Positions 1,184-29,731 of a stretch of DNA of 30,159 nucleotides are shown piece by piece. The first letter of the stretch is position 1. Every line of letters begins with the position of its first letter. The DNA lies in the IMG/VR virus record IMGVR_UViG_3300025168_000420, positions 1 through 30,159 of that record. One strand, given 5' to 3'. The position numbers were made by a program, and so were the translations under genes. Origin of the DNA: a virus. The notes under the pieces are model-generated. The model saw nothing but the letters and a program-made list of their open reading frames with translations. It did not search any database and was not told where the DNA came from.

Positions 1184-1315
1184 TGTTTATAATTCAAATA
1201 CAATAATACTGGATTATTAAAAAAAAACGAAGTAACTTTGGTGGGTAGTGGGTAATTAATTACTTTATTATTTTATATTTAATATAAGAAATTTATAAAA
1301 ATTTTAATTTATATT
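1184..1315 (+). promoter_or_regulatory. AT-rich intergenic region, candidate promoter for the early block
   Basis: A 132-nt gap between the lysis genes and the recombination genes. TAACTTTG at 1233-1240 matches the Bacteroidota -7 element TAnnTTTG but has no TTTG 19 nt upstream. TATATTTA at 1274-1281 matches the variant box seen at 12458 and 26753, also without a good -33 element. A promoter here is expected from the layout but the sequence support is moderate. Confidence 0.4.
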
Positions 1316-3066: not shown

Positions 3067-3090
3067 GGGGGTTAATAGCCCCCTTTTTTT
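3067..3090 (+). terminator. rho-independent terminator or attenuator
   Basis: GGGGG at 3067-3071 pairs with CCCCC at 3079-3083 around a TTAATAG loop, followed by seven T. The next gene starts only 9 nt later without an evident promoter, so it may act as a partial terminator that lowers expression downstream. Confidence 0.8.
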
Positions 3091-4144: not shown

Positions 4145-4356
4145 TTATAATAATTTTTTTATTAGTTATTGCGTTTATTTTTATAGTAATAGGACATATA
4201 AAGAAAGCTGAGATATTTATAAGCCCGATAAAAGGCTTTATGGTTGGTTTTTTATATCACAAAGACGAATATTTAGAAGAGGACGAGTTTACCCTACAAT
4301 GTTTGTTAGGGGTAATTAGTTTAAACGTAATATGGAAAAATCTGCCGAGTGGCTAA
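4141..4356 (+). CDS. small membrane protein
   Basis: A 71-residue protein starting at TTG 4141, whose last two bases form part of the TGA stop of the ATPase (TTGA overlap). Residues 2-18 (IIIIFLLVIAFIFIVIG) are a clear membrane segment, and a moderately hydrophobic stretch at 53-66 could be a second. Function unknown. The end overlaps the sigma-like gene by 25 nt. The tight packing between a replication ATPase and a sigma-like factor suggests an early membrane protein, but nothing shows its job. Confidence 0.65.
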   Translation: MIIIIFLLVIAFIFIVIGHIKKAEIFISPIKGFMVGFLYHKDEYLEEDEFTLQCLLGVISLNVIWKNLPSG

Positions 4357-4883
4357 AAATAGTAGCGAAAGAGCATAAAAAATGGATTAAGCTTGTTAAT
4401 AATTTAGGAGAGTATAGCTTTGCGGAAGATATAGTCCAAGAGGCTTATATTGTTTTATATAAATATACTAACGAGGAAAGTATAATAAAGAATGGAAAAG
4501 TATCTCAAGGATATATGTTTTATACTTTACGCTCGGTTTTGTTTCAATTTCATAACGCTAAAAAGAAATTTAAAAGACAAGATATAGACGATAAAGAATT
4601 CTTTAATAAAATACCTAATATCGATAATTTAGACGTTGAACAAGGTTATAATAACTTTTGTCTTCTTTTAGATAAAAAGGTAGATACGTTTAATTGGTAT
4701 GATAAGAAACTTTGGAAGCTTTATTCTCAAACCGATATGTCAATAAGAAAGATAGCGTCCGAAACCAATATAAGTTGGGTAAGTATATTCAATAGCTTAA
4801 AAAATATTAAGAACGATCTAAGAGAAGATTTAAAAGAAGATTACGAAGATTGGAAAAATAGAGATTACGAACGATTAAAATAA
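4332..4883 (+). CDS. sigma-70-like factor
   Basis: A 183-residue protein. Residues 31-45, AEDIVQEAYIVLYKY, match the region 2 core of ECF/sigma-70 proteins (AEDLVQE.F..L...), and YTLRSVLFQFHNAKKKFKRQ (64-83) fits the end of region 2. Residues about 123-165 (YDKKLWKLYSQTDMSIRKIA and the following helix) look like region 4, with the helix-turn-helix MSIRKIASETNISWVSIFNSL. Role: probably directs host RNA polymerase to phage promoters. The late motif repeated before TerS, tail, protease, scaffold and portal genes is an attractive target. The region between the two domains is acidic, as in other phage sigma factors. Alternative: a sigma-fold DNA-binding regulator without polymerase binding. Confidence 0.7.
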   Translation: MEKSAEWLKIVAKEHKKWIKLVNNLGEYSFAEDIVQEAYIVLYKYTNEESIIKNGKVSQGYMFYTLRSVLFQFHNAKKKFKRQDIDDKEFFNKIPNIDNLDVEQGYNNFCLLLDKKVDTFNWYDKKLWKLYSQTDMSIRKIASETNISWVSIFNSLKNIKNDLREDLKEDYEDWKNRDYERLK

Positions 4884-4888
4884 AAATT

Positions 4889-5305
4889 ATGGAAAACTAC
4901 AAAGGAGACAAACGTAGTAAAGAATACAAACGATGGAAAAAAAACTTAGAACAATCTAGTAAAGGATTAGGCGATAAAGTCGAAAAGGTCTTTAAGGCGA
5001 CAGGAATAGATAAGGCGGCTAAATTTATACTAGGAGAGGACTGCGGATGCGAAGAGCGTAAGAATACTTTAAATAAAATCTTTCCAAGTAAAAAGATTAA
5101 TTGTTTAACGGAAGACGAATATAATTATTTAGATACTTTCTTTAAACTAAAATCCTCTAAGGTTACGCCCGATCAACAAGCCGAATTAATATTAATATAC
5201 AATAGAGTATTTAACGGTAACGCCGTCGCGACAAGTTGCGGTAGTTGTTTTTTAAACGGAGTATACGATAAACTAAATAAAATATTTAACGAGTACAACG
5301 ATTGA
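4889..5305 (+). CDS. conserved hypothetical protein with Cys pairs
   Basis: A 138-residue protein with a basic N-terminus (1-25). GLGDKVEKVFKATGIDKAAK (26-45) precedes DCGCEERK (51-58), and SCGSC lies at 116-120. Cys52, Cys54, Cys117 and Cys120 could form one metal site. This arrangement (GLGD..EKI.KATGI...DCGCEERK) is a recurring conserved hypothetical in flavobacterial phages from memory. Function unknown; metal binding is inferred. It lies 5 nt after the sigma-like gene and overlaps the next gene as TTGA. Confidence 0.75.
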   Translation: MENYKGDKRSKEYKRWKKNLEQSSKGLGDKVEKVFKATGIDKAAKFILGEDCGCEERKNTLNKIFPSKKINCLTEDEYNYLDTFFKLKSSKVTPDQQAELILIYNRVFNGNAVATSCGSCFLNGVYDKLNKIFNEYND

Positions 5306-6311: not shown

Positions 6312-6342
6312 TTTGTATGTTAAAATTATTTGTTTATATTTG
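6312..6342 (+). promoter_or_regulatory. host-type promoter (TTTG-N19-TATATTTG)
   Basis: TTTG at 6312-6315, exactly 19 nt, then TATATTTG at 6335-6342, a full match to the Bacteroidota -33/-7 consensus TTTG-N19-TAnnTTTG. TTGTTT occurs twice 21 nt apart (6309 and 6330), about two helical turns. It drives the gene at 6369. Confidence 0.85.
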
Positions 6343-7034: not shown

Positions 7035-7804
7035 TAACATTATTAAACGGGGAAACTTGGGGCAAAGAAGAGATCTTAGCTCAAATGTACGACGACGAAT
7101 TTTATTACGGTCACTTAGGCAAGTACGCTTTAAGTAGCTCAAGCCTTAAAACTATTCTTAAAAGTCCTAAAACTTATAGAAACGTAATTAAGTACGGAGA
7201 TCCTAGTTCGGGAAGTCCGGCGTTATCTTTAGGTAGACTCGCTCATTGGATGTTGCTAGAGCCTAGAAAAATAGATAAAATACATTTTGTAGATACATCT
7301 AAAAAGAATACTAAAATATACAAAGAAGCAAAAGAGAACGCTAAAGGTGCGGAAGTATTCTTAACAAAAGAAAAAAAAGATACCGAGAGAATAACCGACG
7401 CGGTACTAAGAAACGAAGCGGCTTTAAAATTACTTAGTAATTCGAATTTTGAAGTTCCCGAGATCGGTTTACTTGAAGGATTACCATTTAGAGCAAAGGC
7501 GGATATTATTAAAGGCGATACTATTATAGATTATAAAACATCAAGCGACCTTAGAGGATTTAGGTACGCGGCTGATAAATACTGTTATGACCTTCAAGCC
7601 TATTTATATTTAAGACTCTTTAATAAAAAGAAGTTTACTTTTTTAGTAGTAGATAAAGGTAGTACCGATATAGCAATCTTTGAAGCTAGCGAGGATTTTA
7701 TCAACAAAGGAAAAGACAAGTTTTATTCCGCCGTTGAGAATTATAAATATTTTTTCCAAGATAATAACGATCTCGATCAATACGTTATGCGCGGTATACT
7801 ATGA
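7031..7804 (+). CDS. RecE-type PD-(D/E)XK exonuclease
   Basis: A 257-residue protein of the PDDEXK exodeoxyribonuclease VIII-like family (PF12684 type). ALSSSSLKTILKSPKTY (33-49) is the typical start. LGRLAHWMLLEP at 68-79 gives the conserved His72. FRAKADII at 153-160 gives Asp158. IIDYKTS at 165-171 is the catalytic D-x-K with Asp167 and Lys169, and YDLQAYLYL at 186-194 supplies the Q-xxx-Y helix. It should resect duplex ends 5' to 3', making ssDNA for the ERF annealing protein at 2143. Both flanking junctions are ATGA overlaps, so it is translated together with the CmoA-like gene. Confidence 0.85.
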   Translation: MITLLNGETWGKEEILAQMYDDEFYYGHLGKYALSSSSLKTILKSPKTYRNVIKYGDPSSGSPALSLGRLAHWMLLEPRKIDKIHFVDTSKKNTKIYKEAKENAKGAEVFLTKEKKDTERITDAVLRNEAALKLLSNSNFEVPEIGLLEGLPFRAKADIIKGDTIIDYKTSSDLRGFRYAADKYCYDLQAYLYLRLFNKKKFTFLVVDKGSTDIAIFEASEDFINKGKDKFYSAVENYKYFFQDNNDLDQYVMRGIL

Positions 7805-8454
7805 AAGAATTTAGCTTCGATACAATAAAAGATTTTGACGGGCATATAAACAAGAGTATACCTTCGTTTAATATATTACTAAATTTAATAGAAAATATCT
7901 CTTATAGTTTTATTAGAGATAATTACAACGTCTACGACCTAGGTTGCTCAAAAGGTAGTTTACTTTTAAATTTAAGTAAAGGAAATAAAACAAATACTAA
8001 TTTTGTAGGATACGATATATCTTCAAACCTTTTACCTAAAGATAAAAACAAAGTTTACTTTTTAAATAAAGATATAACCGAAGAGGATATTAAGTTTATA
8101 GATCCTTCTTTAGTATTATCTATTTTTACTTTACAGTTTATTGATTACAATAAGAGACAACCTTTATTAAATAAGATATACAAATCTTTAAATAAGGGAG
8201 GAGCTTTTATCGTTGCGGAAAAGGTTTTTGTTAAGGACTCTTATATACAAGATATTTTTACTTTTGCTTTATACGATTACAAAAGAAATAACTTTACTCC
8301 TAGCGAGATTTTAAGTAAACAAAAAGACTTAAGAAAGATAATGTTTCCCCTTAAGGAAAAAGAAAATATTAAGCTATTTAAAAAAGCCGGGTTTAAAAAA
8401 ATAGAGCCTTTCTTCCAATCCTTAAACTTCAAAGCTTGGTTATGTATAAAGTAG
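7801..8454 (+). CDS. CmoA-like SAM-binding enzyme, possible Cx-SAM synthase
   Basis: A 217-residue class I SAM-fold protein that resembles CmoA, which turns SAM plus prephenate into carboxy-SAM, more than generic methyltransferases. Matches remembered from E. coli CmoA: VYDLGCSKG (44-52, motif I), FTLQFI (109-114), RQPLLNKIYKSLNKGGAF (119-136) then VAEK, YDYKRNN (158-164), KKAGF (194-198) and FFQSLNF (204-210). The N-terminal FDGHINKSIPSF (12-23) parallels FPDMIQRSVPGY. Odd point: the Arg that holds the Cx-SAM carboxylate in E. coli CmoA (Arg199 as I recall) aligns with Gln174, next to Lys175. No CmoB gene is present. It is coupled to the DNA methyltransferase that overlaps its end. Alternative: an ordinary small-molecule methyltransferase. 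Confidence 0.72.
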   Translation: MKEFSFDTIKDFDGHINKSIPSFNILLNLIENISYSFIRDNYNVYDLGCSKGSLLLNLSKGNKTNTNFVGYDISSNLLPKDKNKVYFLNKDITEEDIKFIDPSLVLSIFTLQFIDYNKRQPLLNKIYKSLNKGGAFIVAEKVFVKDSYIQDIFTFALYDYKRNNFTPSEILSKQKDLRKIMFPLKEKENIKLFKKAGFKKIEPFFQSLNFKAWLCIK

Positions 8455-9527
8455 AATACAAGCCTATAAAATTAAAAGACGTTAAGGAGGAATCTAATAA
8501 AAAACTATTTAACGTTATTTCTTTCTTTGCCGGAGGAGGAGGTTCTTCTTTAGGATATAGAATGGCGGGAGGAAAAGTTTTAGCAATAAACGAATTTGTA
8601 GAAAGCGCTCAAGATACTTACCGGGCTAATTGGGAGGATACAAAAATATACCCTAACGATATAAGACAAATAAAAGGAGAGGATATACTAAGAGATCTTA
8701 ACCTCAAGAAAGGAGAACTAGATATATTAGACGGCTCCCCTCCTTGCGCTTCGTTTTCCGTAGCGGGCAATAGAGAAAAGGATTGGGGCAAAGAAAAGAA
8801 GTATAGTAATAAAACTCAAAAGACCGACGATCTATTTTACGAGTTTGCTAGGATAATAAAAGAAATTCAACCTAAGACTTTTATAGCGGAAAACGTTAAA
8901 GGTATGTTAATCGGGCAAGCTAAAGATTTATTTGGCAGCGATCAATTATCAATGTTCGGAGAGCATAGCGAGACGATATACCATACTTTAACTAATATAG
9001 GTTATAACGTTTCTTATAGAGTTTTAAACGCTAAAGACTTTGGAGTTCCTCAATCAAGAGAAAGATTAATTATAGTTGGAGTAAGAGACGATATACAAAA
9101 AAAGTTTAAATTTCCTAAACCTTCAAACTATAGATTTAATTTAAAAGAAGCTTTCGAAGGATTAGAGAATACAAAAGAAGAGCTTAAAGAAGCTAATATA
9201 GAAGCTTACTCTATATATAAAGAATCTAAGAAACTTAAAGAAGGAGAGCAAAGCGTAAAGTATTTTAGTTTAATAAAGACGGATAGGAATAAACCGTCGG
9301 GAACTTTAACCCAAACGGCGGGATCGATATCAGCCGCTTCTATAATACATTGGGAAGATAGAAAGTTTACCGTAAGCGAAGCAAAAAGAATAATGAGCTT
9401 TCCGGACGATTATAAATTAATAGGAAAGTATAGAGATAAGATAGAGAGACTAGGGAGAGCCGTTCCCCCTTTATTAATGAGATCGGTAGCTAAACAATTA
9501 TATAATTTAATTTTAAAAGAACAATGA
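8442..9527 (+). CDS. DNA cytosine-C5 methyltransferase with Arg in motif X
   Basis: A 361-residue Dcm/HhaI-type enzyme with all main motifs: FAGGGGSSLGYRMAG (29-43, motif I), NEF (50-52, II), GSPPCASFS (98-106, IV, catalytic Cys102), ENVKGM (150-155, VI), QSRERLI (204-210, VIII), target-recognition region about 225-300, FTVSEAKRIMSFPDDY (309-324, IX) and RLGRAVPPLL (336-345, X). Motif X normally has Asn where this one has Arg339. That Asn lines the pocket around the methyl group of SAM, so the change should alter cofactor choice. QLSMF at 168-172 resembles a sliding-clamp-binding peptide. I chose ATG 8442 over TTG 8436; it overlaps the CmoA-like gene by 13 nt. Product could be 5-methyl- or 5-carboxymethylcytosine in phage DNA, protecting against host restriction. 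Confidence 0.92.
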   Translation: MYKVEYKPIKLKDVKEESNKKLFNVISFFAGGGGSSLGYRMAGGKVLAINEFVESAQDTYRANWEDTKIYPNDIRQIKGEDILRDLNLKKGELDILDGSPPCASFSVAGNREKDWGKEKKYSNKTQKTDDLFYEFARIIKEIQPKTFIAENVKGMLIGQAKDLFGSDQLSMFGEHSETIYHTLTNIGYNVSYRVLNAKDFGVPQSRERLIIVGVRDDIQKKFKFPKPSNYRFNLKEAFEGLENTKEELKEANIEAYSIYKESKKLKEGEQSVKYFSLIKTDRNKPSGTLTQTAGSISAASIIHWEDRKFTVSEAKRIMSFPDDYKLIGKYRDKIERLGRAVPPLLMRSVAKQLYNLILKEQ

Positions 9528-9961: not shown

Positions 9962-10164
9962 ACCACAATAAAATAAGAGACCATTATCTTTTAGCCCTAA
10001 TAGATATAGCAAACGGTAAAAATATAATGGAATTAGAGGAAGCTATCGACGACTACGAGGAGCTTGAAGAGTACGAGGCTTGCGCCGGTATTTTAAAAGC
10101 AATACACGAAAGCGGATATTTAACAATAAAAGATTTAATTAAAATAATAGATAAAAATGAATAA
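9958..10164 (+). CDS. 68-residue acidic hypothetical protein
   Basis: Starts with GTG 9958, overlapping the TGA stop of the nuclease (GTGA). It contains a very acidic helix at about 25-40 (ELEEAIDDYEELEEYEACAG). No known domain. Acidic small proteins sometimes mimic DNA, but nothing here shows that. It overlaps the DnaA-domain gene by 8 nt. Confidence 0.65.
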   Translation: MNHNKIRDHYLLALIDIANGKNIMELEEAIDDYEELEEYEACAGILKAIHESGYLTIKDLIKIIDKNE

Positions 10165-10621
10165 AGAAACAATACAAAAATTAGTAGAAGAATTTTACGA
10201 ACTTGATATAACTCGAAATACTAGGAAAAGAAACTACGTTGAGGCTAGAGCAATGTATTATAAAATAGTAAGAGACAATACAAGATTAAGCCTAGAGGCT
10301 ATAGGTAAAACGGTTAATAGAGACCACGCTAGCGTATTTTACGGAATTAAATCCCTAAGTAATTGGATTGATACCGATCGATCTATAAAAGCAAGATATA
10401 GATTACTAGAAGAGCAAGTAGAAGAGTTTAAGTCTATAGCTACGGATAGAAACTTAATTAAAGAAGTAGATCAAAAACTAGCTTTAGAGTTTAGTAGATT
10501 GAACCATAGGCATAAAGAATTGTTAAACGAGAATATAGGACTCGCCTTAGAGTTGAAAAAATTAAAGGAGGATCATAGTAAAAGAGAACAATTTTATACT
10601 AGATACGGGTTTATAAATTAA
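10157..10621 (+). CDS. DnaA domain IV-like DNA-binding protein with coiled coil
   Basis: A 154-residue protein. Residues 24-66 (KRNYVEARAMYYKIVRDNTR through SLEAIGKTVNRDHASVFYGI) match the DnaA box-binding domain: ARAMYY, then the helix-turn-helix SLEAIG and the signature NRDHASV at 54-60 (compare GGRDHSTV of DnaA). The AAA+ ATPase part is missing. Residues about 75-145 form a long charged coiled coil. It could be an origin-binding initiator, a competitor of host DnaA, or a regulator. It is the last gene before the terminase block and its late promoter. Domain call is good; role is inferred. Confidence 0.72.
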   Translation: MNKETIQKLVEEFYELDITRNTRKRNYVEARAMYYKIVRDNTRLSLEAIGKTVNRDHASVFYGIKSLSNWIDTDRSIKARYRLLEEQVEEFKSIATDRNLIKEVDQKLALEFSRLNHRHKELLNENIGLALELKKLKEDHSKREQFYTRYGFIN

Positions 10622-10646
10622 CAATAACTTAAAAATCTTATTATAT
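10620..10646 (+). promoter_or_regulatory. late promoter motif copy 1 (before TerS)
   Basis: AACAA at 10620-10624, 14 nt, TATTATAT at 10639-10646. Same architecture as four other copies (13195, 22286, 23674, 26814). Here 25 nt separate the box from ATG 10672; in the others 4 nt. Interpreted as a -35/-10-like pair recognised by a phage-specified polymerase; not experimentally known. Confidence 0.65.
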
Positions 10647-10671
10647 AATTGAATAAACAATCTATTTCAAT

Positions 10672-12089: not shown

Positions 12090-12120
12090 TTTGGTAGTTA
12101 ATAAAAAGTTTATATCTTTG
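12090..12120 (+). promoter_or_regulatory. host-type promoter (TTTG-N19-TATCTTTG)
   Basis: TTTG at 12090-12093, exactly 19 nt, then TATCTTTG at 12113-12120: full match to the Bacteroidota consensus. The sequence after the box (GAGTATAATTAA) resembles that after the 6335 box (GAGTATTATTAA), so the two promoters may be related by descent. Drives the gene at 12144. Confidence 0.87.
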
Positions 12121-13187: not shown

Positions 13188-13194
13188 CTATTTA

Positions 13195-13221
13195 TACAAA
13201 TTAGGTTTAATTTTATTATAT
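13195..13221 (+). promoter_or_regulatory. late promoter motif copy 2 (before tail chaperone)
   Basis: TACAA at 13195-13199, 14 nt, TATTATAT at 13214-13221, then 4 nt to ATG 13226. Part of an 18-nt string TTTATTATATATATATGA (13212-13229) that is identical at 23691 and 26831. Confidence 0.7.
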
Positions 13222-13225
13222 ATAT

Positions 13226-14933: not shown

Positions 14934-16415
14934 ATGAGTACAAAGATAAACGTAAGAAGCCCCTTTTATTTACATTTAGTAGAGCCTAGTCCTCCCTTAC
15001 CTGACTTTAATTGTTCGGTCGCAAGCTTAGTAGGTTTTGAAGTAGATAATCAAGGTATAATAACTTTACCTAGTCCCGCCGTTGGAGTTATAGATTCTAT
15101 ATCGAGCGACGACGGAGACTTTTCTAATAACAAGTTCCCTACCGAAACAACGGATACCTCGAGAACGATAAAAATAAAACTACTTATTCCTATAGGTTAC
15201 GCAAATACGATTGATATCTTTTTTGAATGTCCCGTTACCGCAACGCAACCGGGAGTAACTAGCTCGGTCGTACAGCCTACGGTTTGTTCCGGTGGACCAG
15301 GTACCTCGGGAAGTATAAGCGCTCAAAGTTTATCGGTAGGCGGATCAAGTGTAGATATTGCTTTAGCGGGATTCTTTACAAGCGAAACAACATACGCTTT
15401 TTCTAACTTAAATCCTAACTTAGTAACGGCGGCGTTAAGCGGTAGTACTTTAACTTTATCGCCAAATGTAATAGCGGGATCAACTACGGTTTACGCAATA
15501 GGGAGAGACGCTAGTTATCCGACAACTTGCGAGGCTACTCAAAGTATAGCGGTTACGGTAACGGATAGTACTACGGCTTTTAGTTGTACCGCTCCAACTA
15601 ATCCGGCTTTACAAGGAGGAGGTATTACTCAAGCGGGGGCAATAACAAACCCTACAACAATAGGAACTATAACAAAGATAATGGCAACCTCCGGAGGCGG
15701 AGCGATAACAAGTGTAGCGGCAAATAGCGGATCGTCGGCTCAAAACGTAACTTTGTTTTTTAATATTACGGTACCTTCGGGTTATTCAAACGCAGCGGCT
15801 ACCGTAGAATGTTCGGCTACTTTCTCTCAACCGGGAACGACGGCTCCTACGTTTACTTGTTCTTTAGCAAACCTTACAGGTCAAGCAATAGCAAGAAACG
15901 GTGCTATATTTTTAGGATCTTCAACCCTAGGAACGGTTAAGAGTTTTACGCCTCCGACAGATCCTTTTAAAGACGTCCCGACGGACACTTCAAGAACGGT
16001 AGTATATCAAGTAGAAATACCTTCGGGTTATTTAAACGCGGGATCTACAATAGATTGTAGCGTAACAATGACGCAACCGGCAACGGTAAGTATTTGTGGA
16101 TCAAACAATTTCTTTATAAGTTCGGGAAAGACAACGCAGGAGGGACATTGTAACGCAGCTTACGGTGCGAATAAAGCGATAAGCTCAACGGCGGCAAGTT
16201 TAAACGCGCTTCTTAATAGTCAAGTATGCCAAGGCGGTGTAGCCTTCGACGGTAACGGATTATATTACGGCGTATTTACTTCGTCGGCTTCAAGTGCAAT
16301 AGGAGCGGTAGGTAAATCTTATTATGTAATAAAAATAGAAAGTACGGGAATAGTTAGCGAATTAGCAATAGTATCTTGTAATACTACGGGCGGAGGAGCT
16401 GGCGTAATAGTTTAA
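14934..16415 (+). CDS. virion protein with three repeated Ig-like modules
   Basis: A 493-residue Ser/Thr/Gly-rich protein. About residues 25-108, 215-302 and 304-391 are related modules: each starts F-[NST]-C-[ST], carries a G-x-I strand, and ends IP.GY.NA....C.V..TQP. Between the first two, SLSVGGSSVDIALAGFF (about 131-147) through YAIGRDASYPTTCEATQSIA resembles a bacterial Ig/cadherin-like domain. The C-terminal 100 residues (AYGANKAISSTAASLNALLN and GKSYYVIKIEST) form a separate domain. Probably a tail-exposed decoration or adhesion protein. It lies in the tail operon; exact location on the particle is unknown. Confidence 0.65.
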   Translation: MSTKINVRSPFYLHLVEPSPPLPDFNCSVASLVGFEVDNQGIITLPSPAVGVIDSISSDDGDFSNNKFPTETTDTSRTIKIKLLIPIGYANTIDIFFECPVTATQPGVTSSVVQPTVCSGGPGTSGSISAQSLSVGGSSVDIALAGFFTSETTYAFSNLNPNLVTAALSGSTLTLSPNVIAGSTTVYAIGRDASYPTTCEATQSIAVTVTDSTTAFSCTAPTNPALQGGGITQAGAITNPTTIGTITKIMATSGGGAITSVAANSGSSAQNVTLFFNITVPSGYSNAAATVECSATFSQPGTTAPTFTCSLANLTGQAIARNGAIFLGSSTLGTVKSFTPPTDPFKDVPTDTSRTVVYQVEIPSGYLNAGSTIDCSVTMTQPATVSICGSNNFFISSGKTTQEGHCNAAYGANKAISSTAASLNALLNSQVCQGGVAFDGNGLYYGVFTSSASSAIGAVGKSYYVIKIESTGIVSELAIVSCNTTGGGAGVIV

Positions 16416-22280: not shown

Positions 22281-22285
22281 TATAT

Positions 22286-22312
22286 AACAAAACAACTTAA
22301 AAAATATTATAT
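22286..22312 (+). promoter_or_regulatory. late promoter motif copy 3 (before protease)
   Basis: AACAA at 22286-22290, 14 nt, TATTATAT at 22305-22312, then 4 nt (TAAT) to ATG 22317. The part between, AACTTAAAAA, also occurs in copy 1 at 10626. Confidence 0.7.
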
Positions 22313-22316
22313 TAAT

Positions 22317-23667: not shown

Positions 23668-23673
23668 AAATAC

Positions 23674-23700
23674 AACAAACAAAAAAGTAATTTATTATAT
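23674..23700 (+). promoter_or_regulatory. late promoter motif copy 4 (before scaffold)
   Basis: AACAA at 23674-23678, 14 nt, TATTATAT at 23693-23700, then 4 nt to ATG 23705. Includes the 18-nt shared string at 23691-23708. Confidence 0.72.
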
Positions 23701-23704
23701 ATAT

Positions 23705-24322
23705 ATGAAATCAACTGATATGCTAAATAAAGTAAAAGAAATTCTTGGGGTTGAATTATCCGAAGAAAAGGAAGTAAAGTTGGCACAAGCCGAACTTGAG
23801 AACGGGACTATTATAGAGTCGGAAAGCTTCGAACCGGGGAACGAGATCTTTATAGTAACGGAAGACGAGCGCGTTCCATTACCTATCGGAGATTATAAAT
23901 TAATTGACGGAGAGACCTTAATTATTAAGGAAGAAGGTATAATATCTTCTATTGGAGCCGTTGAAGAAGAAGAGCCAACCGAAGAAGTAGACGCGGAAGA
24001 AGTAAAAGCGGAAGACGAAAAAGAAGAAATGGGTTACGCTACTAAGGAAGAACTTGAAGAAGTTAAAAAGGTAGTTGAAGAAATTAAAGCTATTCTTATT
24101 CCTAAAGAGGAAGAAATGAGCGAGGACGTAGAAACAAGTGTTAAGTCCGAAGAGACTACAACAAAAACCGTATACGCTCAAAAAGAAGATTTATCCGAAG
24201 TAGAAAAGGTTAACCATAACCCGGAGAACGAAACAGAAAAGAAGATGAATCTTTATTCTCAAAAAAGAGGCAATACTACTTTAGATAGAGTAATGCAAAA
24301 AATATCAAACTTTAAAAATTAA
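23705..24322 (+). CDS. acidic scaffolding-like protein
   Basis: A 205-residue, very acidic protein. N-terminal 1-30 is a helix (KVKEILGVELSEEKEVKLAQ). A beta-rich section (GTIIESESFEPGNEIFIVTE) lies before a long EEE-rich coiled coil (about 80-150, with ATKEELEEVKKVVEEIKAIL). The basic end (GNTTLDRVMQKISNFKN) could bind the capsid shell. Position between protease and major capsid protein, plus this composition, fits a scaffold removed on maturation. The assignment rests on context. Confidence 0.7.
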   Translation: MKSTDMLNKVKEILGVELSEEKEVKLAQAELENGTIIESESFEPGNEIFIVTEDERVPLPIGDYKLIDGETLIIKEEGIISSIGAVEEEEPTEEVDAEEVKAEDEKEEMGYATKEELEEVKKVVEEIKAILIPKEEEMSEDVETSVKSEETTTKTVYAQKEDLSEVEKVNHNPENETEKKMNLYSQKRGNTTLDRVMQKISNFKN

Positions 24323-24327
24323 ATTAA

Positions 24328-24735
24328 ATGTCAACAAAAATAACAACAAGTAACGACGTATTAAGAGCTAGAACGGAGCAAGAAACTCTTACTACTACTC
24401 AAGATATCCCTGTAAACAAAGCAGGTACTGAATTTAATATAGCAACGGATGCGAAAGTTATGACGCTTCCAGCTATTTCTTCAGAAAATATAGGAATGGA
24501 ATTTACTTTCCGTAATACGGGAGCGGACGGTAATAACATTATTACGCTTAGTCCGGCGGCAACGGATGCGATTCACGGAACTGTAGCGGCTGTACAATCG
24601 GGCGGTGTAGATAATAAAGATTGGATCAATACAAAAGCAACTGCTAATAAAGGCGATTGGTGTTCGATCAAAGCCGTAGCGTTAACCGACTGGTATTTAA
24701 CAGGAGGAGACGGCGTTTGGGCAAGTGAATCATAA
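24328..24735 (+). CDS. probable capsid decoration or head-fibre protein
   Basis: A 135-residue protein, low in Lys, rich in Thr/Ala/Gly. Residues about 35-75 (FNIATDAKVMTLPAISSENI, then FTFRNTGADGNNIITLSP) form strands with a Gly/Asn-rich loop, the sort of fold seen in decoration proteins. It lies between scaffold and capsid genes with only 5 nt to the scaffold stop. Function inferred from context and fold type. Confidence 0.55.
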   Translation: MSTKITTSNDVLRARTEQETLTTTQDIPVNKAGTEFNIATDAKVMTLPAISSENIGMEFTFRNTGADGNNIITLSPAATDAIHGTVAAVQSGGVDNKDWINTKATANKGDWCSIKAVALTDWYLTGGDGVWASES

Positions 24736-24759
24736 TAATTAATAAATAAAAAATATACA

Positions 24760-25686
24760 ATGGGAACGACAAATTCATTAACAACTACATACAGCGGTGA
24801 GTTCGCAGGTCAATACATCTCGGCAGCACTTCTAAGTGGTTCAACTTTGGATAACGGATTAATTACCGTTAAACCAAATATTAAATTTCAAGAAGTTATT
24901 AAAAAAGTAGCTTCTGACGATATCGTAAAAGATGCAACGTGTGACTTCGATCCAACATCGACGTTGACATTAACTGAGCGTATAATTACACCGTCAAATC
25001 AACAAGTCAATTTACAACTTTGTAAAAAAGATTTTCAAAACGATTGGGATGCTATCTCTATGGGATTCAGCGCATTCGACTCTTTACCAACTTCTTTTGC
25101 TGATTTCTTGATCGGTCACGTATCGGAAAAAGTAGCTCAAAGAACGGAGCAATCAATTTGGAACGGAGCAGCTGCAACGGCTGGACAGTTCGGAGGTTTT
25201 AAAGAGCTTTTATTAGCAGACGCGGACGTTACGGACGTAGGCGGAGGAGCTGCGGTAGATTCTTCAAATGTAATAGCAAAATTAGGACTCGTAGTAGATG
25301 CGATTGGTAGCTCACTCTATACAAGCGATGACCTATTTATATATGTATCGCAGAACGTAGCAAGAGCATATGTAAGAGCGCTTGGTGGTTTTGCCACTAA
25401 CGTTGGAGCAGCGGGTATTAACTCGGACGGTACTCAATGGTATACCGGAGGGACACTTTCGTTTGATGGCGTAAAACTCGCAGTAGCTAACGGATTAGCG
25501 GATAACACGATGGTTGCCGCAGAGAAAACTAACCTTTACTTTGGTACCGGTTTACTATCGGATCATAACGAAGTAAAAGTGATCGATATGGCGGATATTG
25601 ATGGAAGCCAGAATGTAAGAATCGTAATGAGATTTACGGCTGGAGTTCAGTACGGGATTGGAAGCGACATCGTACTATATTCGTAA
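24760..25686 (+). CDS. major capsid protein
   Basis: A 308-residue protein starting GTTNSLTTTYSGEFAGQYIS, with AALLSGSTLDNGLITVKPNI, an N-arm and E-loop-like start, and a spine helix near 110-130 (FADFLIGHVSEKVAQRTEQS). DDLFIYVSQNVARAYVRALG (about 188-207) is part of the HK97-like P domain. Codon use differs from most neighbours (more C-ending codons, more CGT), expected for a highly expressed gene. The leader AAAAAATATACA before the ATG is repeated before the next structural gene. It builds the head shell and should be trimmed by the XkdF protease. Confidence 0.85.
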   Translation: MGTTNSLTTTYSGEFAGQYISAALLSGSTLDNGLITVKPNIKFQEVIKKVASDDIVKDATCDFDPTSTLTLTERIITPSNQQVNLQLCKKDFQNDWDAISMGFSAFDSLPTSFADFLIGHVSEKVAQRTEQSIWNGAAATAGQFGGFKELLLADADVTDVGGGAAVDSSNVIAKLGLVVDAIGSSLYTSDDLFIYVSQNVARAYVRALGGFATNVGAAGINSDGTQWYTGGTLSFDGVKLAVANGLADNTMVAAEKTNLYFGTGLLSDHNEVKVIDMADIDGSQNVRIVMRFTAGVQYGIGSDIVLYS

Positions 25687-25708
25687 TAGATAATTAATCA
25701 ATTAAAAG

Positions 25709-25747
25709 GGTGGGTAAGCCAATAAGTGCCTACTCACCTTTTTTTTT
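25709..25747 (+). terminator. rho-independent terminator after the capsid gene
   Basis: GGTGGGTA (25709-25716) pairs with TACTCACC (25731-25738) with a G-T pair and a 14-nt loop, followed by about nine T. It limits read-through from the capsid gene into the next structural gene. Confidence 0.8.
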
Positions 25748-25763
25748 ATAAAAAAATATACAG

Positions 25764-26339
25764 ATGGCGTGTGATTTAACACTTGGTAGAAAAGAACCTT
25801 GCAAAGATGTTGTAGGGGGATTAAAAAATGTTTATTTTGTTGATTTTGGTGATTTGGGTACGGTAACCTTAGCCAATGATGAAATTACAAATATGACTGG
25901 TAGTTCTGGAAGTTTAACTGCGTTTAAGTACGAATTAAAAGGAAATAGCAGCTTTGAACAAGCTATTACCTCTTCTCGTGAAAACGGAACGACTTTCGTT
26001 GAACAAACCTTAACTTTAACTTTAAAAAAATTAACGAAGGAAGATAATAAAGAGCTGAAATTACTGGCTTATGGTAGACCTCACGTAGCGGTGGAAGACT
26101 ATAACGGTAATGTCTTTATGATGGGATTAGAGCACGGTGCGGAAGTGACCGGGGGTACTGTTTCGACTGGGGCAGCTATGGCAGACCTCTCGGGATATAC
26201 TTTAACGATGGCGGCATCTGAGCTTGCACCTGCTAACTTTATGGATTCGGATACAAAAGATGTTGACTTCCCATTTAGTGTAGTAGATTACGCTGGTTTA
26301 GATGGTACAGTAACTATTACTTTAGGAACAAATTCTTAA
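25764..26339 (+). CDS. probable major tail tube protein
   Basis: A 191-residue protein starting MACDLTLGRKEPCKDVVGGL, with strands and FEQAITSSRENGTTFVEQTL (about 64-83), later HGAEVTGGTVSTGAAMADLS. The pattern recurs after the capsid gene of flavobacterial phages. A role as tail tube is suggested by the size, beta-rich composition and the A-rich leader (ending TATACAG) it shares with the capsid gene, both proteins needed in many copies. Alternative: a head protein. Codon use is like that of the capsid gene. Confidence 0.55.
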   Translation: MACDLTLGRKEPCKDVVGGLKNVYFVDFGDLGTVTLANDEITNMTGSSGSLTAFKYELKGNSSFEQAITSSRENGTTFVEQTLTLTLKKLTKEDNKELKLLAYGRPHVAVEDYNGNVFMMGLEHGAEVTGGTVSTGAAMADLSGYTLTMAASELAPANFMDSDTKDVDFPFSVVDYAGLDGTVTITLGTNS

Positions 26340-26363
26340 TAGGGTTTTTATTTGGTAAAATTA

Positions 26364-26388
26364 GGGGGTTTTTAGCCCCCTTTTTTTT
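26364..26388 (+). terminator. rho-independent terminator between converging genes
   Basis: GGGGG (26364-26368) pairs with CCCCC (26376-26380) around TTTTTAG, followed by eight T. It ends the plus-strand head operon. The minus-strand gene ends inside its T-run, so the same hairpin can serve the other side weakly. Confidence 0.87.
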
Positions 26389-26722
26389 ATACTACTAAAG
26401 CGGCGTAAAATCTATTTGGATCGTAGAACTTTATAGTACCATACCATTTTTGACCTCCGTCGTAACAAACGGTAATAGTATTATTTGGAGCTATTATTTT
26501 AGAGTCTCCGTATTCCGTACCTTCTAAATCATCAATATACCAACCGCTAGGAGCGTTTTCAACTTTTAATACTAATTTTTCTAAGTTGTATTCGCTTCTT
26601 TCTAAAAAAACTTTACGTCCTTTATTGTCTTCGCCTATATATTTACGATTAGCAATTTTTAAAGCCTTTTCGTTTTGTTCTTTTTGTAACCTTTCTATTA
26701 ATTGTTGTTTTGAATTTTCCAT
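26387..26722 (-). CDS. accessory hypothetical protein, the only minus-strand gene
   Basis: A 111-residue protein beginning MENSKQQLIERLQKEQNEKA; the frame could start 20 residues earlier at 26782, but that start lies within the promoter, so ATG at 26722 is chosen. A Lys/Glu/Gln-rich N-terminal helix (to about 30) leads to a small beta-rich part (GRKVFLERSEYNLEKLVLKV; SGWYIDDLEGTEYGDSKIIA; KWYGTIKFYDPNRFYA). No family recognised. It has its own host-type promoter (26753-26783) and converges on the head-gene terminator. Likely an inserted moron-type gene. Confidence 0.72.
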   Translation of the reverse strand: MENSKQQLIERLQKEQNEKALKIANRKYIGEDNKGRKVFLERSEYNLEKLVLKVENAPSGWYIDDLEGTEYGDSKIIAPNNTITVCYDGGQKWYGTIKFYDPNRFYAALVV

Positions 26723-26742
26723 TTTATTTGTTTTTGTTATTT

Positions 26743-26804
26743 TTTTACTTTGTAAATATACAACCTTTTTAGATATAAACAAATAATAAACAATTTATTT
26801 TAAT
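26743..26804 (-). repeat. 62-bp promoter repeat, copy B (inverted)
   Basis: Inverted copy of 12414-12475: identical 21-nt block, one mismatch, TTGTTTAT, an unlike 14-nt spacer, and the identical 18-nt TATATTTACAAAGTAAAA. The conservation of both edges with a freely changed spacer suggests functional sites rather than a recent copy. Confidence 0.8.
26753..26783 (-). promoter_or_regulatory. host-type promoter for the minus-strand gene
   Basis: Read on the minus strand: TTTG (26783-26780), 19 nt, TATATTTA (26760-26753), one base from TAnnTTTG. Same geometry as 12436-12465. Transcription would start about 30 nt before the ATG at 26722. Confidence 0.78.
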
Positions 26805-26813
26805 ATTTAATTT

Positions 26814-26840
26814 AACAAAAAACAAGTTTTTTTATTATAT
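26814..26840 (+). promoter_or_regulatory. late promoter motif copy 5 (before portal operon)
   Basis: AACAA at 26814-26818, 14 nt, TATTATAT at 26833-26840, then 4 nt to ATG 26845. Contains the 18-nt shared string at 26831-26848. It sits back to back with the minus-strand promoter. Confidence 0.72.
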
Positions 26841-26844
26841 ATAT

Positions 26845-27192
26845 ATGATAGTATTGCAAGAAACTAACAACGCTCAAAATATAAACTTTATACCTAGAGA
26901 ATATACCGCCGGAGCTTCTTATACTTTTAATATAGTAGACGAAACTCAAAATAAAAGCGTATATAGTCAAGCGACAACCGGAGTAACTCAAAACCTATAC
27001 TATAATAGATATAGCGCTTCTTTTACAACCTTAAAACAAGGTATTTATTATATGCTTACCGTTTTATCCGGTACAAACGTTATCTTTAAGGACAAAATAT
27101 ACTGTACTAATCAAACCGATTTACCTCAATATACAATCAATAGCGGAGAGTATACTTCTAACGATACTACAAACGAATTTATTACAATATAA
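26845..27192 (+). CDS. virion-module protein upstream of portal
   Basis: A 115-residue protein starting MIVLQETNNAQNINFIPREY, mostly strands with Thr/Tyr/Asn, and ending YTINSGEYTSNDTTNEFITI. The pattern (FIPR...A...F.I.DE; DKIYCTNQ) recurs in the same place in flavobacterial phages. A neck or head-vertex component is possible but unproven. Stop overlaps the portal start by one base (TAATG), so they are co-translated from the late motif. Confidence 0.62.
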   Translation: MIVLQETNNAQNINFIPREYTAGASYTFNIVDETQNKSVYSQATTGVTQNLYYNRYSASFTTLKQGIYYMLTVLSGTNVIFKDKIYCTNQTDLPQYTINSGEYTSNDTTNEFITI

Positions 27193-29120
27193 TGGAGAAC
27201 CTACATATAGTTAATTTAGCCTCTTATAATAGACCTCAAATATCCGAAGACAAGCAAAGAGAATGGGTAAATTACGGAGACGATAATAATTACTACCAAT
27301 ATCTTATAGATTTATATACCAATTCTACAACTAATAACGCAATTATTAACGGTATAGCAAATATGATATATGGCAAAGGAATTGACGCTCTTAATAATAG
27401 TCAAAAGCCTAACGAATACGCCGCTATGCGATCTATAGTATCGGATCATTGTTTAAGAAAAGTTTGCTTAGATCTTAAATTACTAGGAGAGGGATCTTTT
27501 CAAGTTCTTTATCAAGATACTAAAGTAATAAAGGCGGAGCATTTTCCTAGACAAACCTTAAGACCGGAAAAATGTAACGAAGACGGAAAGATAGAAGCTT
27601 ATTATTACGCTGCCGATTGGACTAAAGTAAAGCCAAACGATAAACCTCAACGAATCGCTTCTTTTGGATTTGGTAACGGTAAAGAACCGGAAATTAAAAT
27701 ATGTAAAAGATACGTTTCCGGCTACGATTATATATGTCCCGTCGATTACCAAGGCGGACTAGCTTACGCGGAACTAGAAAGCGAGATATCGGATTACCTT
27801 ATTAACGACGTTCAAAATAATTTTTCGGGCACCAAAATCGTAAATTTTAATAACGGTTCACCGGACGTTAATCAACAACTCCAAATTAAAAACGACGTAA
27901 TGCGAAAGCTTACCGGCGCAAGAGGAGAGAAAGTAATAATAGCCTTTAATAATAACGCCGAAAGCAAAACAACGGTAGACGATATACCCTTAAACGACGC
28001 TCCGGCTCATTACGAATACTTATCTAACGAATGTAGCAATAAGTTAATTGTAGCGCATAGAGTTACAAGTCCTTTACTTTTAGGAATAAGAAACGATAGT
28101 AACGGACTAGGATCAAACGCGGACGAAATAAAAACCGCCGCTTTACTTTTTGACAATATAACTATAAAGCCTTATCAAGATCTTTTAGTCGATTGTATAG
28201 ACGATATACTAGCCGTTAACGATATAAGCCTTAAACTCTATTTTAAGACGTTACAACCGCTTTCTTTTATTGAATCGGACAACTTAGTTACCGACGAAGC
28301 TAGAGAGGAAGAAACGGGCGTTAAAAGAGATTTAAGCTTAAAAAGTCAAGTAGTAGATAAAGACTTCGCTATTATAGACGATCGTTTAGCTTATTCAACT
28401 AAAGAAATGGCTATCGAAGGAGCTAAAAATATAGGCTGCGAAGGTTATCACGAACACGAGTACGAGGGCAAGATTTGGTTTATGCCTTGCGAAGAACATA
28501 AACAAAGTAATTTAAGCGCCGAAACGGACGAAAAAATCTTTGATTTACTCAACGAGTTTGGCGAAGACGAAGATTTAGAAAATTGGGATTTAGTAGACGA
28601 ACGTAAAGTCGATTACGATCAAGAAGAGGCTTTAGATAAAATGGTAGGTTTAGCAAGAGTAGGACAAGCAACTCCAAATTCTAAAAGTAAGCAAGACGAA
28701 ACAAATAAAGAAGGAGTACAATTTAGAGTAAGATATCAATACGCTCCTTTAACGGTTTCGGCTAATAGTCGAGAGTTTTGTAGAAAAATGGTAGCCGCTA
28801 GAAAATTATATCGTAAAGAAGATATAATGCAAATGAGCAAACAACCCGTTAACGCCGGCTGGGGACCAGACGGAGCCGCTACATACGACATCTGGCTCTA
28901 TAAAGGCGGTGGATCGTGTCAACATTTTTGGATGCGTAAGACATATATGAGTAAAAAAATAGGAGAAAAAGCAAACGTTCCAAAAGACGAAATAAGCGTT
29001 AACAAAGCAAAAAAAGAAGGTTTCAAACCCGAGACTAACAATACTAAAGTTGCGAAACGTCCTAGAGATATGAAAAATAGAGGGTTTATAAAACCTAAAA
29101 ACTTTACAACACCGAGATAG
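27192..29120 (+). CDS. portal protein with a fused C-terminal domain
   Basis: A 642-residue protein. Residues 1-375 are the portal part: EWVNYGDDNNYYQYLIDLYT (25-44), then NNAIINGIANMIYGKG, LGEGSFQVLY (98-107), a wing and stem region, and VTSPLLLGIRNDSNGLGSNA (291-310), a common portal motif. A linker at 410-440 carries Cys416, His420, His422, Cys433 and His436, a likely metal knuckle. The C-terminal part (about 505-590; SANSREFCRKMVAARKLYRK and GPDGAATYDIWLYKGGGSCQ) is a domain also found on other phage head proteins. A basic tail follows. It forms the DNA entry vertex. Confidence 0.85.
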   Translation: MENLHIVNLASYNRPQISEDKQREWVNYGDDNNYYQYLIDLYTNSTTNNAIINGIANMIYGKGIDALNNSQKPNEYAAMRSIVSDHCLRKVCLDLKLLGEGSFQVLYQDTKVIKAEHFPRQTLRPEKCNEDGKIEAYYYAADWTKVKPNDKPQRIASFGFGNGKEPEIKICKRYVSGYDYICPVDYQGGLAYAELESEISDYLINDVQNNFSGTKIVNFNNGSPDVNQQLQIKNDVMRKLTGARGEKVIIAFNNNAESKTTVDDIPLNDAPAHYEYLSNECSNKLIVAHRVTSPLLLGIRNDSNGLGSNADEIKTAALLFDNITIKPYQDLLVDCIDDILAVNDISLKLYFKTLQPLSFIESDNLVTDEAREEETGVKRDLSLKSQVVDKDFAIIDDRLAYSTKEMAIEGAKNIGCEGYHEHEYEGKIWFMPCEEHKQSNLSAETDEKIFDLLNEFGEDEDLENWDLVDERKVDYDQEEALDKMVGLARVGQATPNSKSKQDETNKEGVQFRVRYQYAPLTVSANSREFCRKMVAARKLYRKEDIMQMSKQPVNAGWGPDGAATYDIWLYKGGGSCQHFWMRKTYMSKKIGEKANVPKDEISVNKAKKEGFKPETNNTKVAKRPRDMKNRGFIKPKNFTTPR

Positions 29121-29122
29121 TT

Positions 29123-29626
29123 ATGGCAGAGGCATTATTTGTAACTAGAAAAGATATAGTTAAGTATACTTCGGTATCCGGAGGACTTGATACGGATCGT
29201 TTTATACAATACGTTAAGATTGCGCAAAATATACATATACAAAACTATATAGGAACGGATCTTTATAATAAGATTTCTACCGATATTAAAGCGGGTAATT
29301 TAGCGGGTAATTACGCTACCCTTGTTGAGACGCATATTAAGCCTTGTTTAGTACATTGGGCTATGGTTGAGTACTTACCTTGGGCGGCTTATAGAGTCTC
29401 AAATCAAGGTATCTCTAAAGGTACTAGCGAAAACTCCGATAGCGTTTCAAAAGAAGAGGTAGATTTTTTAGTAGAAAAAGAAAGAAAAACGGCTCAATAC
29501 TATACCGATAGAATGATAGACCACTTCTCTTTTAACGCCGCTAGTTTATATCCGGAGTATTATAGTAATAATAACGACGACGTTTTCCCGGATAAAAGCG
29601 CGGATTATACAGGTTGGGTTATATGA
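29123..29626 (+). CDS. head-tail connector (DUF6712-like adaptor)
   Basis: A 167-residue, mostly helical protein. The start MAEALFVTRKDIVKYTSVSG and HIQNYIGTDLYNKISTDIKA (about 38-57) match the DUF6712 head-tail adaptor family, as does the helix with HIKPCLVHWAMVEYLPWAAY. It follows the portal gene by 2 nt and would form the ring beneath the portal. Its stop overlaps the next small gene by ATGA. Confidence 0.78.
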   Translation: MAEALFVTRKDIVKYTSVSGGLDTDRFIQYVKIAQNIHIQNYIGTDLYNKISTDIKAGNLAGNYATLVETHIKPCLVHWAMVEYLPWAAYRVSNQGISKGTSENSDSVSKEEVDFLVEKERKTAQYYTDRMIDHFSFNAASLYPEYYSNNNDDVFPDKSADYTGWVI

Positions 29627-29721
29627 TTAAAAAAATTAGAAAATACAAACCGAAAGAACAAAATATAGTTAAGTTAAAAAACTATTTAAAAAAGATATAT
29701 AACAAAAACGTAAAAAAGTAA
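29623..29721 (+). CDS. 32-residue very basic protein
   Basis: ATG 29623 to TAA 29719-29721. It begins MIKKIRKYKPKEQNIVKLKN and is over 35 percent Lys/Arg. It overlaps the connector stop by ATGA, which is good evidence for translation. Possible DNA-binding or assembly peptide; no family known. Confidence 0.55.
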   Translation: MIKKIRKYKPKEQNIVKLKNYLKKIYNKNVKK

Positions 29722-29731
29722 TTATAATAGT

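Follow-up and report, generated by a model that had tools for sequence, protein, structure and literature searches.

Phage T4 relies for its late genes on gp55, a small and divergent sigma factor that acts together with gp33 and the sliding clamp on promoters that have an AT-rich -10 element and are devoid of a -35 element. The stretch of DNA analysed here, a 30,159-base virus record from IMG/VR that is referred to as the window, similarly encodes a small divergent putative sigma factor and has AT-rich late -10 elements, but differs from T4 by the presence of a predicted region 4 and of a -35 element.

Salmonella phage 7-11 possesses a small ECF-type sigma factor, gp47 (SaPh711_gp47), with regions 2 and 4, and its bipartite late promoters are complemented by early genes that are read by the host sigma factor (PMC8948821). 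The window is predicted to share all of these features, whereas its promoter sequences are others and the host of 7-11 is a proteobacterium. The sigma factor gp36 of phage phiEco32 is also of the ECF type and serves middle and late transcription, and its -10 element tAATGTAtA resembles the TATTRTATA of the window (PMC8948821, PMC4331800); unlike in the window, however, no region 4 is recognised in gp36 and the phiEco32 promoters lack a -35 element. In addition, gp79 of phiEco32 inhibits host sigma70 transcription, and shut-off of the gp79 type is absent in 7-11. In both phages, 6-9 bp separate the promoter element from the start sites (PMC8948821). For 7-11, a motif had been predicted in silico (PMC4331800), but experiments later led to a consensus unlike it (PMC8948821), and caution is therefore required for all in-silico promoter predictions.

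With the switches of 7-11 and phiEco32 the window shares a phage-specific and repeated promoter motif that is restricted to late genes, host-type promoters before early genes, and a sigma gene outside of the structural block. With its bipartite late promoters and its predicted region 4, the system of the window probably works more like that of 7-11 gp47 than like that of phiEco32 gp36. The window protein is weakly similar to gp47 (hhalign probability 16, E = 0.0016, residues 27-167), and with gp36 region 2 alone could be aligned, again with weak similarity. Therefore, similar function and membership in the ECF fold group are claimed here, but not close descent.

The only annotated homologue, gp33 of Nonlabens phage P12024S (Inhavirus), is annotated as hypothetical, Sigma-70 region 2 being mentioned in a note, and its score for this Pfam region is above the gathering score. 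It is homologous to the window protein (hhalign probability 96, E = 2e-9), and as in the window the gene precedes the terminase and has a small Cys-rich gene in its vicinity, and a bipartite motif precedes the late genes. Unlike in the window, the -10 element of P12024S is CGTTA and not TATTRT, and identity in the profile alignment amounts to 22%. No report on a late-gene sigma switch in Bacteroidota phages was found in the open literature searched.

The putative sigma gene and its genomic neighbourhood

Nearly all genes of the window are located on the plus strand. The nearest relatives of its terminase belong to Flavobacterium psychrophilum phages (49% identity) and that of its portal to Nonlabens phage P12024S (37% identity), therefore the virus very probably infects a bacterium of the phylum Bacteroidota. 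Two ORFs just precede the early genes, a small peptidase-like one at 203-553, judged by eye to be of the M15 type, and a holin-like one at 636-1052 (PHROG 3427), so that the early block follows the lysis genes. The gene at 4332-4883 is situated within this early block, with the gene for a DnaB-like ATPase (3233) before it, recombination and methylase genes after it, and TerS/TerL further downstream. In the clade A relatives as well, it is found outside of the structural block, where it follows the DnaB-like gene and precedes TerS/TerL.

An earlier note on this DNA had assigned a region 2 segment and a region 4 helix-turn-helix (HTH) to one small protein of the early block. Both were located in the product of 4332-4883, with AEDIVQEAYIVLYKY representing residues 31-45 and MSIRKIASETNISW residues 136-149 (for an overview see Table 1). 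The reading frame is kept at 45-98% identity in 80 loci that were retained from 313 candidate stretches. In an alignment of 36 members, consisting of the window protein and viral relatives, the segment EDIVQE, which in sigma factors is part of the core-binding region 2.2, and several HTH residues are invariant. The conserved frame and the invariant residues argue that the ORF is not due to chance. A tblastn search with the window protein against cultured phages did not identify any relatives, and the genome scan for prophage relatives yielded just three weak ECF-like matches of 22-27% identity.

The small Cys-rich protein encoded at 4889-5305 is conserved beside the sigma gene or close to it in most of the records of all three clades of related phages. 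Neither a family with an assigned function nor a noteworthy fold match was found for it; a role as partner of the sigma factor is possible. The gene of its orthologue in P12024S, gp35, is preceded by a putative late promoter of the clade C type described below.

Table 1. Coordinates of predicted genes and promoter-like sites in the window.
Feature	Position	Strand	Details
Putative sigma-factor gene	4332..4883	+	183 aa, ATG...TAA
Predicted layout of the sigma-like protein			region 2 ~residues 7-79 (EDIVQE 32-37), linker ~80-96, region 4 ~97-166 (HTH 136-156)
Gene for small Cys-rich protein (CGC...CxxC)	4889..5305	+	conserved beside sigma gene
Host-type -7 element before gene 1316	1233..1240	+	TAACTTTG
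Host-type (Bacteroidota primary sigma) promoter-like site before early gene 6369	6313..6342	+	TTG-N19-TATATTTG
Host-type promoter-like site before small gene 12144	12091..12120	+	TTG-N19-TATCTTTG
Predicted late promoter, TerS (start 10672)	10616..10647	+	AATTAACA-N14-TTATTATATA, 22.5 bits, held-out scan
Predicted late promoter abutting start codon 13226	13191..13222	+	TTTATACA-N14-TTATTATATA, 24.5 bits
Predicted late promoter abutting start codon 22317 (head maturation protease-like)	22282..22313	+	ATATAACA-N14-ATATTATATT, 21.2 bits
Predicted late promoter abutting start codon 23705	23670..23701	+	ATACAACA-N14-TTATTATATA, 22.9 bits
Predicted late promoter abutting start codon 26845 (gene before portal)	26810..26841	+	ATTTAACA-N14-TTATTATATA, 25.7 bits
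Predicted late promoter abutting start codon 29732	29697..29728	+	ATATAACA-N14-TAATTATAAT, 19.4 bits

Elsewhere in the window, positions 7801-9527 are taken up by a SAM methyltransferase-like ORF and an adjacent C5 cytosine methylase; in several relatives, other genes are found at this position. Just before TerS, positions 10157-10621 encode a stand-alone DnaA DNA-binding-domain protein (Bac_DnaA_C, E = 2e-11), which is also present in most window-clade relatives. The gene 14934 contains an internal repeat of 68 nt (15772-15839 and 16018-16085, 72% identical), and its product is among the less conserved late proteins of the relatives. A minus-strand ORF of 131 aa (26387-26782) is found between the genes 25764 and 26845, beside a GGGGG...CCCCC-T hairpin, and two close relatives have minus-strand ORFs of similar size at this position. 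In the related record G005 (38,972 nt), two different copies of the head module (L086 and L087, comprising the 23705 to 29123 orthologues) are present, one at each end, so that the contig may be chimeric or have an unusual arrangement.

Profile and fold evidence for an ECF-type sigma factor

The profile search for sigma regions that the earlier note had proposed resulted in full-length ECF matches. The window protein was recognised by TIGR02937 (sigma70-ECF) with E = 7e-7, residues 26-166 covering positions 23-164 of the 165 in the profile, by TIGR02985 (Bacteroides-type sigma-70) with E = 4e-6, and by PHROG 1740 (sigma factor) with E = 1e-5. Both NCBIfam models were matched by all 36 members of the alignment, with best E-values of 5e-13 and 2e-11. 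The score of 29.0 bits that the window protein reaches is below the cut-off of 42.9 that NCBI sets for the model, and relatives that were scanned individually also stay under the curated sigma cut-offs; phiEco32 gp36, an experimentally proven phage sigma factor, obtains only 23.3 bits with the same model.

A search of the sequences of solved structures gave no match, and with the profile only matches at chance level were obtained. The AlphaFold (AF2) model of the window protein, which has a mean pLDDT of 78.7, had ECF sigma factors as top Foldseek matches in the PDB: 6dv9 (E = 5e-4), 6jbq and 1or7; a VIA Z of 9.9 was obtained as well. For region 2 of the model, superposition on 5uxx_C gave 3.5 A (80 residues), and for region 4, superposition on 2h27_D, sigmaE region 4 bound to -35 DNA, gave 2.1 A (69 residues). 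The rmsd of the whole model is high because the two domains have no fixed position relative to each other. The model is devoid of regions 1 and 3 and consists of helices at residues 7-79, a weak stretch at about 80-96, and helices at 97-176, i.e., two domains and a linker. Sequence and model therefore display what appear to be the features of ECF group 4, namely region 2 homology including the putative core-binding segment, a region 4 HTH, and the two-domain build. The -35 element of the window clade contains AACA and its -10 element is TATTRT; an ECF-like CGTT at -10 is confined to the clade of P12024S. Profile and fold evidence together support the view that 4332-4883 encodes a small, divergent, two-domain sigma-70 factor of the ECF type.

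A protein that derives from a sigma factor but acts as an activator or an anti-sigma factor, with another phage protein reading the motif, would be consistent with the sub-threshold profile scores and with the Pfam results, in which YlxM-like HTH families matched better and sigma region 2 was matched weakly; the conserved small neighbour 4889 could serve as a co-factor. We regard this as very improbable, since the ECF profiles match at full length, from region 2 through the linker to region 4, sigma structures were matched by each of the two domains, EDIVQE is invariant, and the spacing of the two promoter elements described below fits sigma regions 2 and 4.

A bipartite motif upstream of the late genes

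A repeated non-host promoter before the late genes had been claimed without the motif being spelled out, and it was identified in the present analysis. To this end, 24 related records with a common gene order were gathered, and a common pattern was observed upstream of four late gene families. Two-block de novo EM on 47 non-redundant upstream sequences, from which the window and the TerS upstreams were left out, returned the motif WTWWAACA-N14-TTATTRTATA, in most cases with three bases between motif and ATG. A loose regular expression for the motif turned out to be noisy. When the held-out window was scanned with the matrix, six sites of at least 18 bits were detected on the plus strand, all of them before late genes, at an expectation of 0.075 per strand (Table 1). 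The TerS site, the first predicted promoter of the late block, is separated from the ATG by 24 nt. The same scan gave one site of at least 18 bits on the minus strand (22069, 18.5 bits), which was taken as chance, as was a match of 16.4 bits at 8142 within the methyltransferase gene.

The motif was recovered when each gene family in turn was left out. TerS upstreams, on which the matrix was never trained, carried it in 19-20 of 21 cases in every run, and for the left-out families the counts were 10/21, 9/15, 16/16 and 13/16. Before early genes the motif was found in none of the 237 upstreams.

Early and late genes are preceded by different promoter-like sites

Window-clade genes with at least 25 nt of upstream sequence were counted, where 'late' was assigned from gene content. 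The phage motif precedes 83 of the 148 late genes, but none of the 77 early genes (Fisher 8e-21). The reverse distribution was observed for TANNTTTG, which is part of the Bacteroidota primary-sigma consensus (TTG...TANNTTTG; PMC6847099) and occurs upstream of 26 of 77 early versus 4 of 148 late genes (Fisher 3e-10); for both tests, independence is overstated as the records are related. Among the likewise related records of clade B, this host-type element was present before 26 of 39 early and 0 of 63 late genes, and the sigma gene of this clade has it directly upstream in 20 of 20 records. In the window clade, 12 of 15 members of the gene 1316 family have TANNTTTG upstream. Promoters of the sigma70 type (TTGACA/TATAAT) were not enriched in the first 20 kb of the window (70 found, 78 expected).

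No TANNTTTG occurs in the window between a terminator-like hairpin at 3067-3083 and the sigma gene, and the start of the gene overlaps the preceding small ORF, as it does in many close relatives. The window sigma gene may therefore be transcribed by read-through from upstream.

Motif and sigma gene occur together and vary together

An exact-pattern scan of 2.9 million viral contigs, which was blind to the sigma gene, retrieved at least 119 stretches. Among the matches listed, all were from the window's phage family, and most sites were located directly before the same three late genes. The strict pattern occurred in 0 of 296 Bacteroidota genomes. Of 23 longer records recruited by the motif, 22 by the window-clade pattern and one by that of clade C, 12 contain the window-type sigma gene. 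Nine of the 11 records lacking the gene were read (those of 11.6 and 16.5 kb were left out), and all nine are fragments that do not reach the DnaB-to-exonuclease stretch in which the sigma gene lies. Co-occurrence of gene and motif in relatives, which the earlier note had named as a check, is observed in every motif-bearing record that was read across this stretch. The Flavobacterium phage FPSV-S18 served as outgroup, its terminase being 49% identical to that of the window. Within the 29 kb examined, neither a convincing sigma match nor the late motif was detected, and its terminase (packaging) genes are preceded by the host-type TAACTTTG.

The sigma proteins of clade B are about 44-48% identical to the window protein and have ISSSSIF instead of ISWVSIF in the HTH. 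Anchored alignment on ACA yielded a motif in which ACA is 27 nt from the ATG in 49 of 49 sites, exactly the window-clade distance, and the -10 element, nA[AG]TTA, is unlike that of the window clade. Two of the three site families of clade B lie in very short gaps, where the -35 element extends in part into the preceding coding sequence, an overlap that may account for its conservation, and the evidence from this clade is therefore weaker. Clade C comprises P12024S and six related loci, which encode a homologous sigma factor. In most of them, late genes are preceded by AAAACA...CGTTA (17 sites), the distance between ACA and ATG being 27-28 nt, which matches the classical ECF promoter with AAC at -35 and CGT at -10, as given in a passage of PMC4153023 that cites Helmann 2002.

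With the window-clade matrix, 98 sites were detected in the window clade, 4 in clade B and 0 in clade C, and with the clade B matrix 64 in clade B and 7 in the window clade, where the own-clade counts of both matrices comprise the training sites; the scanning model of clade C was built on two sites only (27-nt spacing). The three sigma lineages thus each appear to have a version of the -10 element of their own in the same geometry. If this reading is right, the -10 preference of a sigma factor can drift while the -35 element is largely fixed. The proposal of the earlier note that the sigma factor is the likely reader of the late motif gains support from the sequences, as the motif seems to change in step with the sigma lineage.

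Alternatively, a host sigma factor, either primary or ECF, might read the late motif and the phage gene might be unrelated to it, and ECF sigma factors are indeed encoded by Bacteroidota chromosomes. The AAC within the -35 element is also typical of ECF promoters (PMC4153023). However, the late motif is devoid of the host TANNTTTG, the Bacteroidota genomes scanned do not contain the strict pattern, the motif co-occurs and co-varies with the phage gene, and FPSV-S18, in which the terminase is related but a sigma factor could not be detected, also lacks the motif, so that we give this explanation little credence.

As Shine-Dalgarno sites are missing in this phylum, the motif might instead be an AT-rich signal for translation that sits directly before the start codon and has no promoter function. 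We consider this highly unlikely: most copies do abut the ATG at fixed spacing, and translation in Bacteroidota is sensitive to the bases just before the start codon (PMC6847099), but the TerS copy is 22-31 nt from the ATG in most relatives and that of the 23705 orthologue 16 nt in two records, so that the motif is not tied to translation, and furthermore a second element lies about 30 nt upstream at fixed spacing, early genes are avoided, three of the five window promoters that abut the ATG have a T at -3 instead of the A favoured by Flavobacterium ribosomes, and the motif varies with the sigma lineage.

A proposed switch with leaderless late messages

We therefore favour, with a probability of about 0.85, the reading that a phage ECF-type sigma factor redirects the host polymerase from early host-type promoters to six or more late promoters, five of them predicted to give leaderless messages. 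This reading draws on computational results for the protein, namely its sigma homology and predicted fold, and for the motif, which is placed before late genes only, occurs together with the sigma gene and differs in form between the lineages. Host RNA polymerase would read the early genes from Bacteroidota-type promoters (TTG...TANNTTTG), and the phage sigma factor would be made during this early phase. Its region 2 would bind the host core enzyme by the EDIVQE helix, TATTRT at -10 would be recognised by region 2 and WWAACA at -35 by region 4, and the new holoenzyme would then use six or more late promoters to transcribe the genes for packaging, head and tail. The parts of an early-to-late switch that the earlier note had named, a sigma gene of the phage itself and a repeated non-host promoter before the late genes, both appear to be present.

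With TATTRT taken as the -10 hexamer at -12 to -7, the hexamer ends six bases before the ATG in five of the six window promoters. Position +1 would then be the A of the ATG, therefore leaderless late mRNAs are predicted, and the TerS message would carry a leader of about 20 nt. The prediction is sharp because a start further downstream would lose the start codon. The word leaderless is not used in the paper on phage 7-11 (PMC8948821). In Flavobacterium johnsoniae, 87% of the transcripts with a probable promoter have leaders of more than 10 nt (PMC6847099), thus leaderless late messages and their translation would represent a distinct mode.

We consider it somewhat more probable than the opposite that these are sigma promoters locked to the start codon, in which the -10 element sets the start of both transcription and translation, with leaderless late genes in a mostly leadered host group and at least three diverged pairs of sigma factor and promoter in related phages. 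If this is right, these phages would provide a compact natural set of diverged sigma factors and matching promoters for Bacteroidota RNA polymerase, and their late genes would allow a direct test of leaderless translation in the Bacteroidota.
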